Assembly: GCA_026874595.1 (NCBI GenBank)
Contig: CM049313.1
Location: forward strand, 19,731,508-19,795,507
Direction: 5' to 3'
DNA from: Sipunculus nudus
Lineage: Eukaryota; Annelida; Sipuncula; Golfingiida; Sipunculidae
DNA length: 64,000 nucleotides
Under the pieces are notes generated by a model. It had not been told where the DNA came from, ran no database searches, and saw only the letters and a program-made list of their open reading frames with translations. This document shows, piece after piece, positions 4,852 to 61,510 of this stretch; position 1 is the stretch's first letter; every line of letters starts with the position of its first letter. Both the position numbers and the translations under genes were made by a program.

Positions 4852-5425
4852 TACAGTGAAACCCCGGGCTACGGACACCCCTCTTGAGCGGACACCCCGC
4901 CTAACGGACACTCTTTGGGCCGACCGAGCGTTTTTCCTACTTTTAGAACCCCTCTGGGGCGGACACCCCGCTATTCAGGACAACGGACACTTTTTGTCCG
5001 CCCGATGGCTAATTACCTCGGCTAACGGACACTCGAGCGGCCGCGCCGATCGAAGTGGGCAAAAATACCTTGAAACTGCAAATATGGTCTGCTTCCAGTG
5101 CGCCTTATTTCACTTAAATGTTCTTATGATTTAGATTTATTGCCATGTCTATAAGACCGGAGCTAGATTTATTCAATTTACCTTATTTTTCAGTTGGAAC
5201 ATTTATTTTCGTATCCTACTATCAATAGCAGTGCCCACAAAACTACGGAATTCACGGAGTTTCTATGTTGCCGAGCTTTTAGTGAAGTTACATATCCATT
5301 CGATATTCAGGCCACATTATTTTATCATAGGCCAAGGAGCGAGGATAATGACGTATCTGTTACACACCTGGACGATATCAGTCACGGGTTATGACCTCTC
5401 GCCTGGGTCGGGGGCTCAGCTGGGC
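4852..5425 (+). mobile_element. pogo/Tigger-like DNA element fragment (copy 1)
   Basis: The stretch starts TA-CAGTGAAACCCC (4852-4865), the same terminus as at 57960, followed by repeated cggacaccc words to about 5040. This layout, with TA followed by a CAGTGAAACCCC-type end and subterminal repeats, is known in pogo/Tigger-like Tc1-mariner relatives. The superfamily call is inference. The rest matches 58560-59290 in inverted orientation, including a gcgaggataatgacgtatct block near 5340. No transposase is visible. Frames at 4787-5134 and 5194-5455 are repeat sequence. Confidence 0.5.
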
Positions 5426-15479: not shown

Positions 15480-16035
15480 GTGCACGCCACATATACGGTC
15501 CCTAAATTTAAGGTTTCGCCAAATAAGGTCTTGCAACATAAGGTCCGAGCTCTGACCTTTGCTCTCTGGAGAGCGTCCATCTGTGCGTCTGTTTTCACTC
15601 ATAAACCCACATATTTTAGGACTCGCTTGACCAATCGAGCTGAAATTGTGCATGAGTGTAGCTGTTGGACACCTTTATACCATACACTGAACTGGTGGCG
15701 CTCTCTACAATCTTTCTTTCACAGCGTCCATCTTTTTATCTGCCTTGCACATCTATGCGGTGGTTTGACTCAATTCGCCTTAAATTTTGCACAAATAGAC
15801 ATTTTGGATGGGTTTTATCGTATTATATGACATATGGCGCCACCTCTATCACATTTATGCTGCAAACATTCCTGCTGTAATCTCAAGACTGGTTTGACGT
15901 ATCGGCCTAACCCTAGCCCCTGAATAAAGCAATATTTCTCACTCTATTTCTTCTGACCACTCAATCCATGCCTCACTTCACCCACACCACTCTAATTTTG
16001 GCGGATACACGTAGTCGATTGTTCACTACCCGTAT
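15480..16035 (-). mobile_element. Truncated, diverged copy of the 1963-3116 TIR element
   Basis: On the minus strand it shares a gtatccgccaaaat terminus (TIR equivalent at 15996-16008), a cctcacttcaccc block, ggcgccacc motifs and aacccacatat with the first copy, in the same order. The opposite TIR near 15480 is not visible. The frames at 15480-15880 are repeat sequence. Confidence 0.55.
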
Positions 16036-21800: not shown

Positions 21801-22145
21801 CCGGCTTCCGCGGTCTTTAGGGTAGCTACAGCACAAGGCTCAACAGATCGTGAGTTCACCAGCCGAGGCGGTGAGATTTTTCACGGTTGGTCCCCACCCA
21901 GGGTGAGCGCTCGGTGGGCTTAATGAGGTGACTATGCCCAACAGTCGTGGGTCACTCACAAACGTGTTATCACCCAGCAATGGGAATAAGACACACCCAG
22001 GACCCGCAGAAATGGTACACGAACCGGGTTGACATGGATAATCGCGTGTAAGCCCATGTCACGAGGTCTGAAAAGGAAGAATTCTTCGGATGTACATAAT
22101 ACTTGGTGAAGCAAGCAATAAAAATGGAGGTGGTTACCTCACACA
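21801..22145 (+). mobile_element. tRNA-derived SINE, degraded copy
   Basis: The 5' head (ccggcttccgcgg, gggtagctacag, gagttcaccagccgaggcgg) matches the tRNA-like head of the intact SINE at 49175. Body blocks ccccacccagggtgagcgct and acacacccaggacccgcag are shared, and the 3' end tggaggtggttacctc is the same as there. The B box is mutated and several internal segments are missing. No target duplication is visible, so it is older. Confidence 0.75.
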
Positions 22146-23440: not shown

Positions 23441-23865
23441 TTCTATATGGTAGTAATTGTCCAGGTTGCTCTAGCCGGGCTAGATTGACCAATTTCAAAG
23501 CCAATATACTTTATGAATAGTCAACAATGTCGGGATCTGTGCAAGTTCCAATGTTAATGTTGACATAACTTTCATTTACCTGTACTTGTCCTTCATCACT
23601 AATTTGAATACTCGTTCGGACATACAGTTGATGCTCATTCTTTTCAGATCAATGAATTAAGTGTCCCTTTTTTTAAACTGAGCTAATAATGAGTGCTAAA
23701 CATGTTCAAAACATGATAGAAATATATTTGCTTTGTACTCTCTGATTCGATTACAAAATCTGTTTTGAAGAAAAGAATTACATGATAATTATTATGATGA
23801 TAGAATTTTAATAAAGATCTCCCAAGGATTTGCTGATACCCTTGGTCAATTTAAGGTAACGTATT

Positions 23866-23883
23866 ATTCTAATCTCTTTGCAG
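23866..23883 (+). other. 3' splice acceptor before the precursor gene's coding exon
   Basis: A pyrimidine-rich stretch, ttctaatctctttgcag, ends in CAG at 23881-23883, two bases before the ATG at 23886. The intron therefore sits in the 5' UTR, and the first exon and promoter lie upstream, possibly many kilobases away. The taat inside the tract is a possible branch point. The -3 base of the start context comes from the unseen upstream exon. Confidence 0.7.
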
Positions 23884-23885
23884 AA

Positions 23886-24281
23886 ATGAAGAGCTGGGTT
23901 GAGTATATCTTCCTTCTTTCAACGGTTGTGGCCTCGTTTTCATTGGCCTTGAGCATAGACCGAACTATCTGGGCGGAGGATAGCCAGAACACCCTTGACG
24001 CTTGCAGAAGATGTTCACAAACGCCATGGGACAAATATGCCTGTGACAATTGCTACGAGCTGATTGGCCAGTCGGACGCTCCAAGCCCAGGACTTTTGCT
24101 GCATAAGCGTGCCTTCACTGGACGTGAGCTCACGGAAGCTGTTCACAAACGTTCGGCTTTCCTCCTGTGTCGCTGTTGTGTTACCCTGATGGATACCCAT
24201 TGCTGCTACCATTGTGGGTACCCGCCATATTACGGAAAGAGAAGTATGACCAGCAAAATGCTTCCATACAAAAGACGATAA
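23886..24281 (+). CDS. Secreted cysteine-rich neuropeptide/prohormone-like precursor, family not recognised
   Basis: A 131-residue ORF that looks like a peptide-hormone precursor. Residues 1 to about 23 form a signal peptide (MKSW, then a hydrophobic core IFLLSTVVASFSLAL). The first segment has paired CxxC motifs (C40, C43, C53, C56). KR at 74-75 and 88-89 are dibasic cleavage sites, and GKR at 117-119 is a cleavage-plus-amidation signal. The peptide between 90 and 116 would be 27 residues with six cysteines (C95, C97, C98, C106, C107, C110) and an amidated C-terminal YPPYY. KRR ends the chain. The start is chosen because it opens the signal peptide and lies 2 nt after a splice acceptor; the whole coding region fits in one exon. 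It is inferred to pass through the secretory pathway and act as an extracellular signal. The spacing C-x-CC-x7-CC-x2-C did not match CCAP, trissin, allatostatin C, elevenin, insulin or conopressin as I know them. It could also be a cysteine-rich defence peptide. The antisense ORF at 24015-24299 is taken as a shadow. Confidence 0.8.
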   Translation: MKSWVEYIFLLSTVVASFSLALSIDRTIWAEDSQNTLDACRRCSQTPWDKYACDNCYELIGQSDAPSPGLLLHKRAFTGRELTEAVHKRSAFLLCRCCVTLMDTHCCYHCGYPPYYGKRSMTSKMLPYKRR

Positions 24282-24760
24282 ACCCATGACAGAGTCCAAG
24301 TTCTATAGTCCCCATCAAGGACTGTTTCGTTTTGAATGTCCACAGTCAGAAAAGGCTTACACAATCCAATTCCCCGTGCGTGACGATGAAACACTTGCTT
24401 ACATCTGGCCGATTTGAGAGCCCAACACCAAAGGCCGCGTGAAGTATTTTCTGGACCCCTGTTTCATGAAAATCAAGGTATTGGTTAAACCGAACTCTTA
24501 AAACACAGTGAGTTCCCTAGCGATATTCTATGCAATGTTATATCCCATATTATCAGCCACCACAGTACTGACGATCACACCTGATGATGAGGTACAGCCT
24601 CACATCCCCGGTATTAGTATACGTTACCGTGGTTCTATAGAAAGTTCATGTTGTCTGATGTTTAATGTACATATTTGATGCACGGTTTCATTTTCCTGTA
24701 CAAGACAGAAAACCACAAATTCCTCTTGAAATTGAAATAAATAATTTCTCCTTCAGTCTG
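24282..24760 (+). other. 3' UTR and poly(A) signal of the precursor gene
   Basis: After the TAA at 24279-24281 about 450 nt of non-coding sequence lead to a canonical AATAAA at 24736-24741. About 20-30 nt further on is a GT/T-rich stretch (gtaatgtggttgag, then a T run) that fits a cleavage and polyadenylation downstream element. The exact cleavage site, about 24755-24760, is inferred. The signal supports reading 23884-24760 as a terminal exon. Confidence 0.6.
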
Positions 24761-25099: not shown

Positions 25100-25439
25100 A
25101 GCGATATATCATTGATATATCAGTATTCGCATATTGCGTATTGCGATATCTTTCTTATTTATGGTTATTTTTCGATATTCAATCAAACGTGACTGAAATT
25201 GATTATTTAAAAAAAAATGAGGCCGCTGTTAAAAATAAACGTCTAAATATACATATTGTGTGTGCATTTAAATGTAACCATTAATATGTTTATAATATAT
25301 GAAATTATGTTTATCTATACCAGAAAATACATTTGTTTCCTACACTGATACTATGAAAATTTTGCAATTTCTATCACAATACGCAACCTCATATCGCTAT
25401 ATATTGCAAATCGAAAATCACAGGCGATATACCCAGCCT
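25100..25439. mobile_element. hAT-like MITE, 340 bp, 8-bp TSD CATACTGG
   Basis: CATACTGG is duplicated at 25092-25099 and 25440-25447. The right terminus, read inward, is AGGCTGGGTATATCGCC, matching the ends of the elements at 39911 and 56583. The left end starts AGCGATATATCA and seems to have lost the RGGCTG portion. Subterminal regions are rich in cgata/tatcg. An 8-bp duplication fits the hAT superfamily. No ORF. Confidence 0.75.
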
Positions 25440-40877: not shown

Positions 40878-40894
40878 AAAAACTCATTTCCTAT

Positions 40895-41551
40895 AATGTT
40901 AATACAATAAAAATATCGCAATACGTATCGCAATACGCTACTACATATCGCAATATATTGCACTACGAAATTTGTAGGCGATACCCAGCCCCACTCCTTT
41001 CATATAATGTTAATACAATAAAAATATCGCAATACCTATCGCAATACGCTACTACATATCGCAATATATTGCACTACGAAATTTGTAGGCGATACCGAGC
41101 CCCACTCCTTTCATATAATGTTAATACAATAAAAATATCGCAATAGGTATCGCAATACGCTACCACATATCGCAATATATTGCAATACAAAATTAGTAGG
41201 CGATACCCAGGCCTACTATTTTTTTTATAAATTTAATACAATGCAATTATCGCAATATTTATCGCAATACACTACCACATATCGCAATATATTGCAATGC
41301 AAAATTTGTAGGCGATACCCAGGCCTACTATTTTTTTATATAATGTTAATACAATAAAATAACGCAATACGTATCGCAATACGCTACCACATATCGCAAT
41401 ATATTGCAATACAAAATTTGTAGGCGATACCCAGGCCTACTATTTTTTTTATAAATTTAATACAATGCAATTATCGCAATATGTATCGCAATACACTACC
41501 ACATATCCCAATATATCGCAATGCAAAATTTTTAAGCGATACCCAGCCATA
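40895..41551 (+). repeat. 112-bp tandem array, six units, of the hAT-like right end
   Basis: Unit starts are near 40895, 41005, 41117, 41229, 41342 and 41453. Each unit has atcgcaata words and ends in ggcgatacccag, the element terminus. The last two alternate unit types (ataatgttaat versus ataaatttaat) suggest dimer expansion. The frames at 40958-41146 and 41465-41719 are repeat-derived. Confidence 0.9.
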
Positions 41552-41702
41552 CTTGTTTGTCTGCCCAGTGTTGGCAACGTTGCAGATCTGATTTCCGTGA
41601 AGTTCTATTCTGTATCTTTTACCAAAAGACTTGGTCATGTTCTAAAAATAATCTTAGTGTTAAAATGCTTTCCTAGATCAGAACAAAAGTCAAGATATGG
41701 AC

Positions 41703-49174: not shown

Positions 49175-49604
49175 TAACCGGCCTCTGTGGCTCGGGGGTA
49201 GAGCGCAGGACTCAAAGCCGGGAGATCGTCGGTTCGAATCTCAGCCGAGGCGGTGAAGTTTTTCACGGTCGACCCCCACCCAGGGTGAGCGCTCTGCAGG
49301 CTTAATGGAAAGGCTGGGCCCCACAGCCGTGTATCACTCACATACGAGTGCGTCTTTGGGGGGGTTCCTTGGTGTTAGGACCCAGCAATGTTGATGATAA
49401 CACACCCAGGACCCGCAGGTGCGGTTTATCCCGGCCTGGGTGACACCAGATACAAAATAAAAATGATAGGAAGCGAGTGCTACCGCCCTGTCAAGAAGTC
49501 CCAAACCGAAATGGAAACTCTGCAGATGTACATACTTAGGTTAAGAATTAGATAAGTCAGCATTAAAAGATGGCGGCGGTTACCTCCACACACACAAAAA
49601 AAAA
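49175..49604 (+). mobile_element. Young tRNA-derived SINE, 430 bp, perfect 14-bp TSD
   Basis: AACTCTGCGTGTGA is duplicated exactly at 49161-49174 and 49605-49618. The tRNA-like head at 49181-49251 has a 6/7-pair acceptor stem (gcctctg/ccgaggc) and a perfect D stem (gctc/gagc). It also has an A box (tggctcgggggta, 49188-49200) and a B box (ggttcgaatct, 49231-49241). A unique body follows, and the tail is tacctcc(ac)n with an A run. The anticodon and T stems are decayed, so it is not a functional tRNA. It would be transcribed by Pol III and mobilised by an unseen LINE. Confidence 0.92.
49181..49251 (+). other. tRNA-like Pol III promoter head of the SINE
   Basis: A 71-nt cloverleaf-like region with recognisable A and B boxes. 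The anticodon arm does not pair well enough to name an amino acid. Confidence 0.8.
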
Positions 49605-57073: not shown

Positions 57074-58751
57074 ATATTTTATTCGACATAAAAGTAAAGC
57101 ATCCATACAAAATATATTCAGTATGTTTGTAAATATTTTTGTTTTTATTATGTCTATGGACTGTTGTTAAGGATTTTAATCCGCCGACACAACAGCCCCC
57201 TGTGCATGAAACATGGAGAGAGAGAAATTGTACATAAATATGGAGGTTAAATGATTACACATTCTTAATATTTGAGACTATATGATTTAATGAGGTAATT
57301 TGTAAAAAAAAAAAAAACTGGGAAGATTTACAACTTTAATTACTGAAATTATAGTTTGTTATTGATTAAAACCATTTTTTTATGGCTTAGACTAATTTTT
57401 GTTACAGATGTAGCAGTTTATCTAAAGGCATTTGTCTTTATATGATTTTTTTTTAAAAATGTTGTTTGATGTAGCAAATCAAACCTTGAAGACTATGAGT
57501 GAACATTTTGTCAACAATGATTTAGTCGGTTTCATTTATGACTTTTGATGTTATGTTTCTCAGACAGCTGTCTGCTATCTTAGGTCTGGTTTTATTTGTT
57601 ACAAGGGTATCTTTATGTCTTGTGTCATGTTCGTGTGTCATGGTCCTAGTTGAAAAATTAAATGTTTATAAATATTTTGATAGTGATTCATGGCTGTTAT
57701 TATAGTAAAATTTTAATATATTTAATCTGAAGATGTCATTAATTTTAAGGATTTTTAATAATTTAAAAATCGGTTCACTGTGGGCATTGTATTTGCGTTA
57801 ATCCTTATAGCTTTTTTTTGGAGTTAGTCAATCTCCTGTGTGAACAGAATTTGTCCCCAGGCTTTAACCATTTATTTTACGTCTGATGTGAAACGTGGGA
57901 TTTTCAAGTAACCTATGACTGGCTGCGAAAATAATAAAAAAAAAAGAGATAAAATGATATACAGTGAAACCCCTCTGGGGAGGACAGTCACGGGACTGAC
58001 AATTTGTTCGTTGTAGCGGGGTGTCCGCCCTAGAGGGGGTCGGGCCTAGGAGGTCCTGCTGCGGCAACATGTCAGAGACCCAAGTATGGGATTTTATCAA
58101 CCATAAAAAACCGGTATTTTTCCTTTAATATTAAACCTTAAATATATGTTACATGTGAATAAAATTTAATGCTACCGGTTGTGTTTTATTTATTTATTTT
58201 ATTTTTATTTTATTTTTGAATGAGGCTTTTCATATTAACTGGAACATTATCGTCATTACCTATTATTAAAATAATATTTTTACATTAATTGACATCAACA
58301 GGACTTACTCGTCTCGACATATACATTTCTGCACTGGGTCTGTAAAATTTCTCAATTATTCACTCTCCGTGATAATAGACCCAAAAGAATCGCTTATGAC
58401 ATAAATTAATTTTTGACAACTCGTTCAAGTTTTGTGAAAATCTGTTTGGAGCGTAAGCAAATATGATAAATAAAATCATGATATCATATACGCCTTATAA
58501 TTGGTAGTTGGGATTGATTTCCGTGATGCAAATGTTACAGGATCTGGGATTGGTTGATATCGCTGAGCCATCACCCAAGCGAAAGGTAATGAGTCGTGAC
58601 TGTTATCGTCCGGGTGTGTAACAGATACGTCATTATCCTCGCTTCTGGGCCTGTGATAGAATAATGTGGCCCTTGATACAGAATAAATATGTTGCTTCAT
58701 ATGTTGCTTCACCGAGAGCTCGGCACAATAGAATTTTCGTTAATTCCGTCA

Positions 58752-58792
58752 TTTTTTTTTTTTTTTTTTTTTTTTTGGGGGGGGGGGGGGGG
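58752..58792 (+). repeat. T25 G16 homopolymer pair
   Basis: A long T run abuts a long G run. The same site in the 4852 copy is a short mixed sequence, so this is a local expansion. Confidence 0.9.
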
Positions 58793-59082
58793 ACTGCTAT
58801 TAATAAAATGATACATAAATGAATGTTCCAGCTGAAATATAATAAGGTAACTTGAGTAAAAACTAGCTCCGGTCTTATAGTCGTGGCAGTATGCCTAAAT
58901 CATGATAACATTTAAGTGATATATAAGGCGTACCAGAAGCAAATTATATTTGCAATTTCAAAGCATTTCTGAGGACTTCGATCAGGACGGCTGCTTTGGT
59001 GTCCGTTCGCCGGGGTGAGTTTTGCCATCGGGCGAACAAAAAAAGTGTCCATTGTCCCGAATAGCGGGGGTGTCCGCCCTAA

Positions 59083-59233
59083 AGGCCCGGCCACACCGAA
59101 AGCTGCGCTGCGCCGTGCTGTGCAGCCCGTCAAAACAAAGCTGAAAAAAGTTCAACTTTCTCCGCTTTGCAGCGCCGCAAAAATGCTCAGCCGTTTATTT
59201 GCAGCGAAGCGCAGCGTTCGGTGTGGCCGGGCT
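59083..59233. mobile_element. PIF/Harbinger-like MITE, 151 bp, TAA TSD
   Basis: Its ends are inverse complements over about 17 bp (GGCCCGGCCACACCGAA and TTCGGTGTGGCCGGGC). TAA is duplicated at 59080-59082 and 59234-59236. GC content is far above the surroundings. A 3-bp TWA duplication with G/C-rich TIRs fits PIF/Harbinger. The related 4852 copy lacks the insert, confirming an insertion. The plus frame 59015-59236 spans it and is not a gene. Confidence 0.8.
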
Positions 59234-60519: not shown

Positions 60520-61510
60520 ACTAGCATAAAAGTATACCAAAGAATAAAAATACACCAAAGTATAAAGGTACACAAAAGTATTAGAGGACACCAAAGTATG
60601 AAAGTACACAAAATTTTTAAGGACACCAAAATACAAAAGTACATAAATGTATAAAAGATCCCCAAAGTATAAACGTACATAAATGTATAAAAGAATCCCA
60701 AAGTATAAAGGTAGACAAAAGTTTTAGAGGACAACAAAGTATAAAAGTACACAATGTATTAAAGGACACCAAAGTATAAAAGTACACAAAGTATTAAAGG
60801 ACACCAAAGTATAAAAGTACATAAATGTATAAAAGAATCCCAAAGTATAAAAGTACATAAATGTATAAAAGAATCCCAAAGTATAAAGGTAGACAAAAGT
60901 TTTAGAGGACAACAAAGTATAAAAGTACACAAAGTATTAAAGGACACCAAAGTATAAAAGTACATAAATGTATAAAAGAATCCCAAAGTATAAAAGTACA
61001 TAAATGTATAAAAGAATCCCAAAGTATAAAGGTAGACAAAAGTTTTAGAGGACAACAAAGTATAAAAGTACACAATGTATTAAAGGACACCAAAGTATAA
61101 AAGTACACAAAGTATTAAAGGACACCAAAGTATAAAAGTACACAATGTATTAAAGGACACCAAAGTATAAAAGTACACAATGTATTAAAGGACACCAAAG
61201 TATAAAAGTACACAATGTATTAAAGGACACCAAAGTATAAAAGTACACAATGTATTAAAGGACACCAAAGTATAAAAGTACACAATGTATTAAAGGACAC
61301 CAAAGTATAAAAGTACACAATGTATTAAAGGACACCAAAGTATAAAAGTACACAATGTATTAATGGACACCAAAGTATAAAAGTACATAAATGTATAAAA
61401 GAACCCCAAAGTATTAAGGTAGACAAAAGTTTTAAAGGACAACAAAGTAAAAGAGTGCACAAATGTATTAAAGGACACCAAAGAAATAAAGTACACAAAT
61501 GTATTAAAGG
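60520..61510. repeat. 35-bp minisatellite with higher-order structure, about 28 units
   Basis: The unit reads caaagtataaaagtac, then acaatgtattaaaggacac, period 35 bp. A middle zone (60710-61070) has variant units (aaaggtagacaaaagtttta, agaatccc) recurring as 4-5-unit blocks near 60711, 60890 and 61031. A homogeneous zone follows (61070-61370). Five overlapping minus-strand frames (TFILWCPLI-type repeats) are its by-products. Confidence 0.95.

Follow-up and report, generated by a model that had tools for sequence, protein, structure and literature searches.

A probable single-copy gene for a predicted cysteine-rich, amidated prohormone-like precursor in Sipunculus nudus

The stretch of Sipunculus nudus DNA analysed here (the window) comprises 64,000 nucleotides, C8:19731508-19795507 of an assembly of 1,426,538,692 bases in 153 contigs (GCA_026874595.1, contig CM049313.1). 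Its plus strand carries an open reading frame (ORF) of 131 amino acids that runs from an ATG at 23886 to 24281 as a single uninterrupted frame and translates into MKSWVEYIFLLSTVVASFSLALSIDRTIWAEDSQNTLDACRRCSQTPWDKYACDNCYELIGQSDAPSPGLLLHKRAFTGRELTEAVHKRSAFLLCRCCVTLMDTHCCYHCGYPPYYGKRSMTSKMLPYKRR. An initial annotation had recognized a cysteine-rich amidated neuropeptide-like precursor in this frame and had placed its start at 23884, which is the ORF start plus two exon bases following the AG (23882-23883) of a splice acceptor. By eye, the acceptor that it had noticed directly upstream of the ATG is a plausible one (TTATTCTAATCTCTTTGCAG at 23864-23883). The open frame extends in the 5′ direction as far as 23769, and splicing at the acceptor would remove this extension. 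At the predicted exon edge the G+C content rises from 0.34 in the 100-base block at 23800 to 0.49-0.53 in the blocks 23900-24100, and the blocks 24200-24500 have values of 0.43-0.45, a profile that fits an exon with its 3′ untranslated region (UTR) and gives weak support to the gene model. The proposed poly(A) signal is present as an AATAAA at 24736, 455 bases past the stop codon, and is weak evidence because the plus strand of the window contains 217 AATAAA/ATTAAA sites.

Several hallmarks of a prohormone coincide in this one frame. The N-terminus is hydrophobic, with Kyte-Doolittle means over nine residues of up to 2.62, and a signal peptide is predicted from this hydropathy. Dibasic pairs begin at residues 41, 74, 88, 118, 129 and 130; among them KR, KR, GKR and KRR supply the cleavage sites and the amidation glycine that a prohormone should possess. 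Four of the ten cysteines (residues 40, 43, 53 and 56) lie in the N-terminal segment with the spacing C-x2-C-x9-C-x2-C, and six (residues 95, 97, 98, 106, 107 and 110) lie in the predicted amidated peptide with the spacing C-x-CC-x7-CC-x2-C. The leader-like start, the two CxxC motifs, the KR, KR and GKR sites and the 27-residue amidated peptide with this cysteine spacing are all found as first described. With an even number of cysteines on either side, four in the N-terminal segment and six in the amidated peptide, each could be closed separately after cleavage, which would fit two independent disulfide modules.

Signal peptidase, convertase, carboxypeptidase and amidation steps make up the established prohormone pathway. 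If the precursor follows it, signal peptidase would remove residues 1-23 and prohormone convertases would cut at KR74-75, KR88-89 and KR118-119, whereupon a carboxypeptidase would trim the basic residues and peptidylglycine amidating monooxygenase would convert G117 to the amide. The expected product is the 27-residue SAFLLCRCCVTLMDTHCCYHCGYPPYY-amide, probably with three disulfides and a free YPPYY-amide tail. The N-terminal segment with its two CxxC motifs might act as a folding or sorting aid, as its four cysteines allow self-closure, and the receptor for the amidated peptide would most likely be a cell-surface receptor of the rhodopsin type. The parts of the gene and precursor are listed in Table 1.

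Table 1. Predicted features of the gene and its precursor (window positions)
Feature	Position	Strand	Basis
Predicted splice acceptor and final 2 bases of 5′ UTR	23860..23885	+	by eye, without splice predictor
Complete coding sequence, 131 amino acids, uninterrupted	23886..24281	+	ORF translation; full-length self-match in host assembly
Signal peptide, residues 1-23, predicted cut ALS/ID	23886..23954	+	hydropathy; cut by eye from -3,-1 rule
N-terminal propeptide, residues 24-73, C-x2-C-x9-C-x2-C	23955..24104	+	residue and motif positions
KR cleavage site (predicted; KR74-75)	24105..24110	+	dibasic positions
Short peptide AFTGRELTEAVH, residues 76-87	24111..24146	+	translation and dibasic bounds
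KR cleavage site (predicted; KR88-89)	24147..24152	+	dibasic positions
Predicted mature peptide SAFLLCRCCVTLMDTHCCYHCGYPPYY-amide, residues 90-116, six cysteines	24153..24233	+	translation; processing inferred
GKR amidation and cleavage site (predicted; G117, KR118-119)	24234..24242	+	dibasic positions
C-terminal peptide SMTSKMLPY (9 residues), then KRR129-131	24243..24278	+	dibasic positions
Predicted 3′ UTR, AATAAA at 24736-24741, end approximate	24282..24760	+	AATAAA position; G+C 0.43-0.45 (100-base blocks 24300-24500), then 0.37

Four hallmarks were used to estimate how often such a frame arises by chance: a hydrophobic N-terminus, at least three [KR]R sites, a G[KR][KR] site and at least ten cysteines. 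Only one of the ten real ATG-initiated ORFs of at least 90 amino acids in the window, namely the ORF described here, has all four. As a control, 3.84 Mb of first-order random sequence was generated with the composition of the window; it contained 313 ATG ORFs of the same minimum length, none of which had more than two hallmarks. At the composition of the ORF itself, all four occurred in 1 of 2295 random ORFs and three in 4 more. Across the six frames of the window the stop-free pattern C.CC.{5,9}CC.{1,3}C occurs once, in this ORF. The pattern C..C.{6,10}C..C is found twice in the ORF (at 24003 and at 24168, the latter overlapping the mature pattern) and once elsewhere (53104).

A protein search of the 1.43-Gb host assembly returned one full-length copy, the gene itself, followed by matches with expectation values (E) of 0.586 or worse; the search scored only the best first-pass candidates, so that distant paralogues could escape it. 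Two of the weaker matches (E 0.586 and 0.856) contain internal stops. A third (E 2.25) has GYPP and some cysteines in common with the precursor; it lies in a 60-residue frame devoid of an ATG or a dibasic site, and chance is the simplest explanation. The exon does not overlap with internal repeats of the window (blastn, E 1e-8). On the strength of the sequence features, the chance test and the single match in the host assembly, we identify the locus with moderate confidence as a prohormone-like gene that merits annotation, as the initial annotation had proposed.

With a probability of roughly 0.7, the locus is a single-copy gene whose product is the secreted precursor of a neuropeptide or peptide hormone and a divergent relative of a reported lophotrochozoan family, GSWN in the first place and CLCCY in the second, rather than a member of a new class. 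A relative of a known family is favoured because the components published for GSWN correspond in kind to those seen here. The GSWN precursor of Crassostrea gigas (Cragi-GSWN) comprises an N-terminal cysteine-rich peptide, a short peptide, a cysteine-rich amidated peptide and a C-terminal peptide, an order that the text states only in part (PMC8398477). By description, each of these kinds of parts recurs in the S. nudus gene. Its C-terminal peptide has 9 residues before KRR, versus 16 in GSWN (PMC8398477). Homologues are reported from C. virginica, P. yessoensis, L. gigantea and A. californica, with strict conservation of the cysteine positions and of the GSWN motif (PMC8398477). Membership of the S. 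nudus gene fails on this motif, because its short peptide is AFTGRELTEAVH. If the gene nevertheless joins GSWN, the name-giving tetrapeptide would be dispensable and the cysteine-rich amide would be the conserved, probably active part.

The host genome was also searched for a GSWN gene proper. A KRGSWN-type pattern gave 46 matches, versus 38 for a reversed control. Thirty-five of the 46 were inspected in frame (30 loci and 5 fetched separately), and the codons of the remaining 11, as printed, encode something other than KRGSWN. None of the 11 distinct places with a true KRGSWN lies in a precursor-like context, although other flanks or an intron would hide a GSWN gene from such a search. The closest is a 121-residue frame with nine cysteines that lacks a leader before KRGSWN and a G[KR][KR] site (L037). 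At another locus (L027, 1138-1520; G000:C7 near 69384811), KRGSWN, KRGTWN, KRGSWD and KRGTWD recur in a short-period tandem repeat; the motifs fall into different short, stop-broken frames and are not precursor-like. Squid precursors carrying several GSWN or GSWD peptides are described as well, and we take these to be a different family.

CLCCY is a lophotrochozoan family present in Platynereis, oyster and others (PMC3890597, PMC6425005, PMC8557429, PMC8398477, PMC5747525) and is listed for annelids, molluscs, brachiopods and phoronids. Its name implies a C-x-CC arrangement, to which CRCCV (residues 95-99) of the S. nudus precursor corresponds; the likeness is drawn from the name, and the motif itself is CRCCV rather than CLCCY. 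Other families were rejected. CCWamide/agatoxin-like precursors likewise contain one amidated peptide that is rich in cysteine and ends in an aromatic residue, but that peptide has eight cysteines, lies at the C-terminus and is encoded by the last exon, usually the third (PMC8557429), whereas the peptide found here has six cysteines and a further peptide downstream, in an uninterrupted frame. The molluscan insulin-like A chain follows CxCCxxxCxxxxxxxxC, unlike the C-x-CC-x7-CC-x2-C of the S. nudus peptide. Whitnin/PKYMDT likewise yields several peptides from one precursor, among them an amidated one with cysteines, of which there are two in that family (PMC3434067, PMC5996578). PKYMDT is absent from the protein, and we judge the shared letters MDT to be a coincidence. 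Whitnin peptides of Haliotis asinina had no match in the host genome, a search that had no positive control and carries no weight.

Several observations weigh against a gene of this kind and against its relation to GSWN. No homologue was found in Pfam, NCBIfam, PDB or the host assembly, and the gene is predicted from genomic sequence. Pfam and NCBIfam yielded no family for the 131-residue protein at E up to 10, and the seven PDB sequence matches, six antibody heavy chains and one aldolase, are not credible at E 0.12 or worse. The motif GSWN is absent from the 131 residues. A further dibasic pair, RR41-42, which the initial annotation did not list, lies inside the first CxxC, and cutting there would change the processing scheme. 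A single-sequence AlphaFold2 model has a mean predicted local distance difference test score of 46.7 and gives the cysteine-bearing parts no confident fold. The thresholds of the four hallmarks were chosen after the ORF had been inspected. Finally, the G+C step at the exon edge is weak support because the blocks 23000, 23400 and 25000, where no exon is proposed, reach 0.49, 0.48 and 0.44.

The absence of a database match and of the GSWN motif would also suit a wholly new prohormone family without published relatives, which the initial annotation had considered. In addition, twelve short strings from or near the protein sequence do not occur in the main texts of the papers searched, and of the nine papers with CRCCV in the main text none concerns neuropeptides, as judged by title. 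Precursor sequences are usually printed in figures or supplements, whereas the string search covered main texts. Moreover, the GSWN precursors of oysters, scallop, Lottia and Aplysia have the same kinds of parts, and the gene is set apart from GSWN and CLCCY by descriptions, not by sequences. Its status as an unassigned, possibly new family is unproven. In our judgement a new family is unlikely, and less likely than a divergent kinship with GSWN or CLCCY.

That the product is a defence peptide, secreted, rich in cysteine and synthesized as a propeptide, instead of a signalling peptide is considerably less probable. The leader and the ten cysteines would fit, and antimicrobial peptides commonly have six cysteines in their mature form. 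The GKR site, the several dibasic-bounded peptides and the aromatic amide end suit a neuropeptide better, and the 27-residue peptide is not strongly cationic, with one basic (R96) and one acidic residue (D103) besides two histidines. We give marginally less credence still to an open frame that arose by chance or to a pseudogene in decay. The missing homologues, the one random ORF of matching composition with all four hallmarks and the G+C steps of similar size nearby would be compatible with it; the random ORFs at window composition, none of which exceeded two hallmarks, and the plausible acceptor directly 5′ of the ATG speak against it. With its six cysteines, late CC and aromatic tail, the peptide presumably resembles insect trissin. 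That it represents a new six-cysteine amidated neuropeptide family, perhaps as the ligand still missing for the trissin-type receptor of lophotrochozoans, which is listed as an orphan (PMC8557429), is just as improbable.

If real, the gene would enlarge by one the set of lophotrochozoan signalling peptides awaiting receptors, and its product would be a defined one, amidated and rich in disulfides.

Pattern scans in collections of viral and genome contigs, which are not intended for animal genomes, gave 4 and 24 stretches, none of them confirmed. In the window, Rfam at gathering scores and a search for transfer RNAs produced no match. Nine other frames, chosen by us from 284 stop-to-stop frames of at least 55 amino acids (the frame of the gene included), had no Pfam match above a curated cut-off.

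The window also contains several repeats. A 112-base tandem unit is present in 5.9 copies at 40892-41553, and a single 89-base relative of it with 76-78% identity lies 3′ of the gene at 25348-25436. A tandem array with a 35-base unit, 27.7 copies and 85% matches occupies 60526-61510 and gives rise to a repetitive open frame on the minus strand (60759-61073). At 2045-2884 there are about 2.7 copies of a 280-base tandem unit, which has diverged inverted relatives near 15550-15903. An inverted pair at 4951-5420 and 58562-59085, with about 73% identity across 525 aligned columns, is perhaps a dispersed transposable element, and two copies of a dispersed repeat at 21860-21967 and 49242-49349, 81% identical, may represent a short interspersed element.
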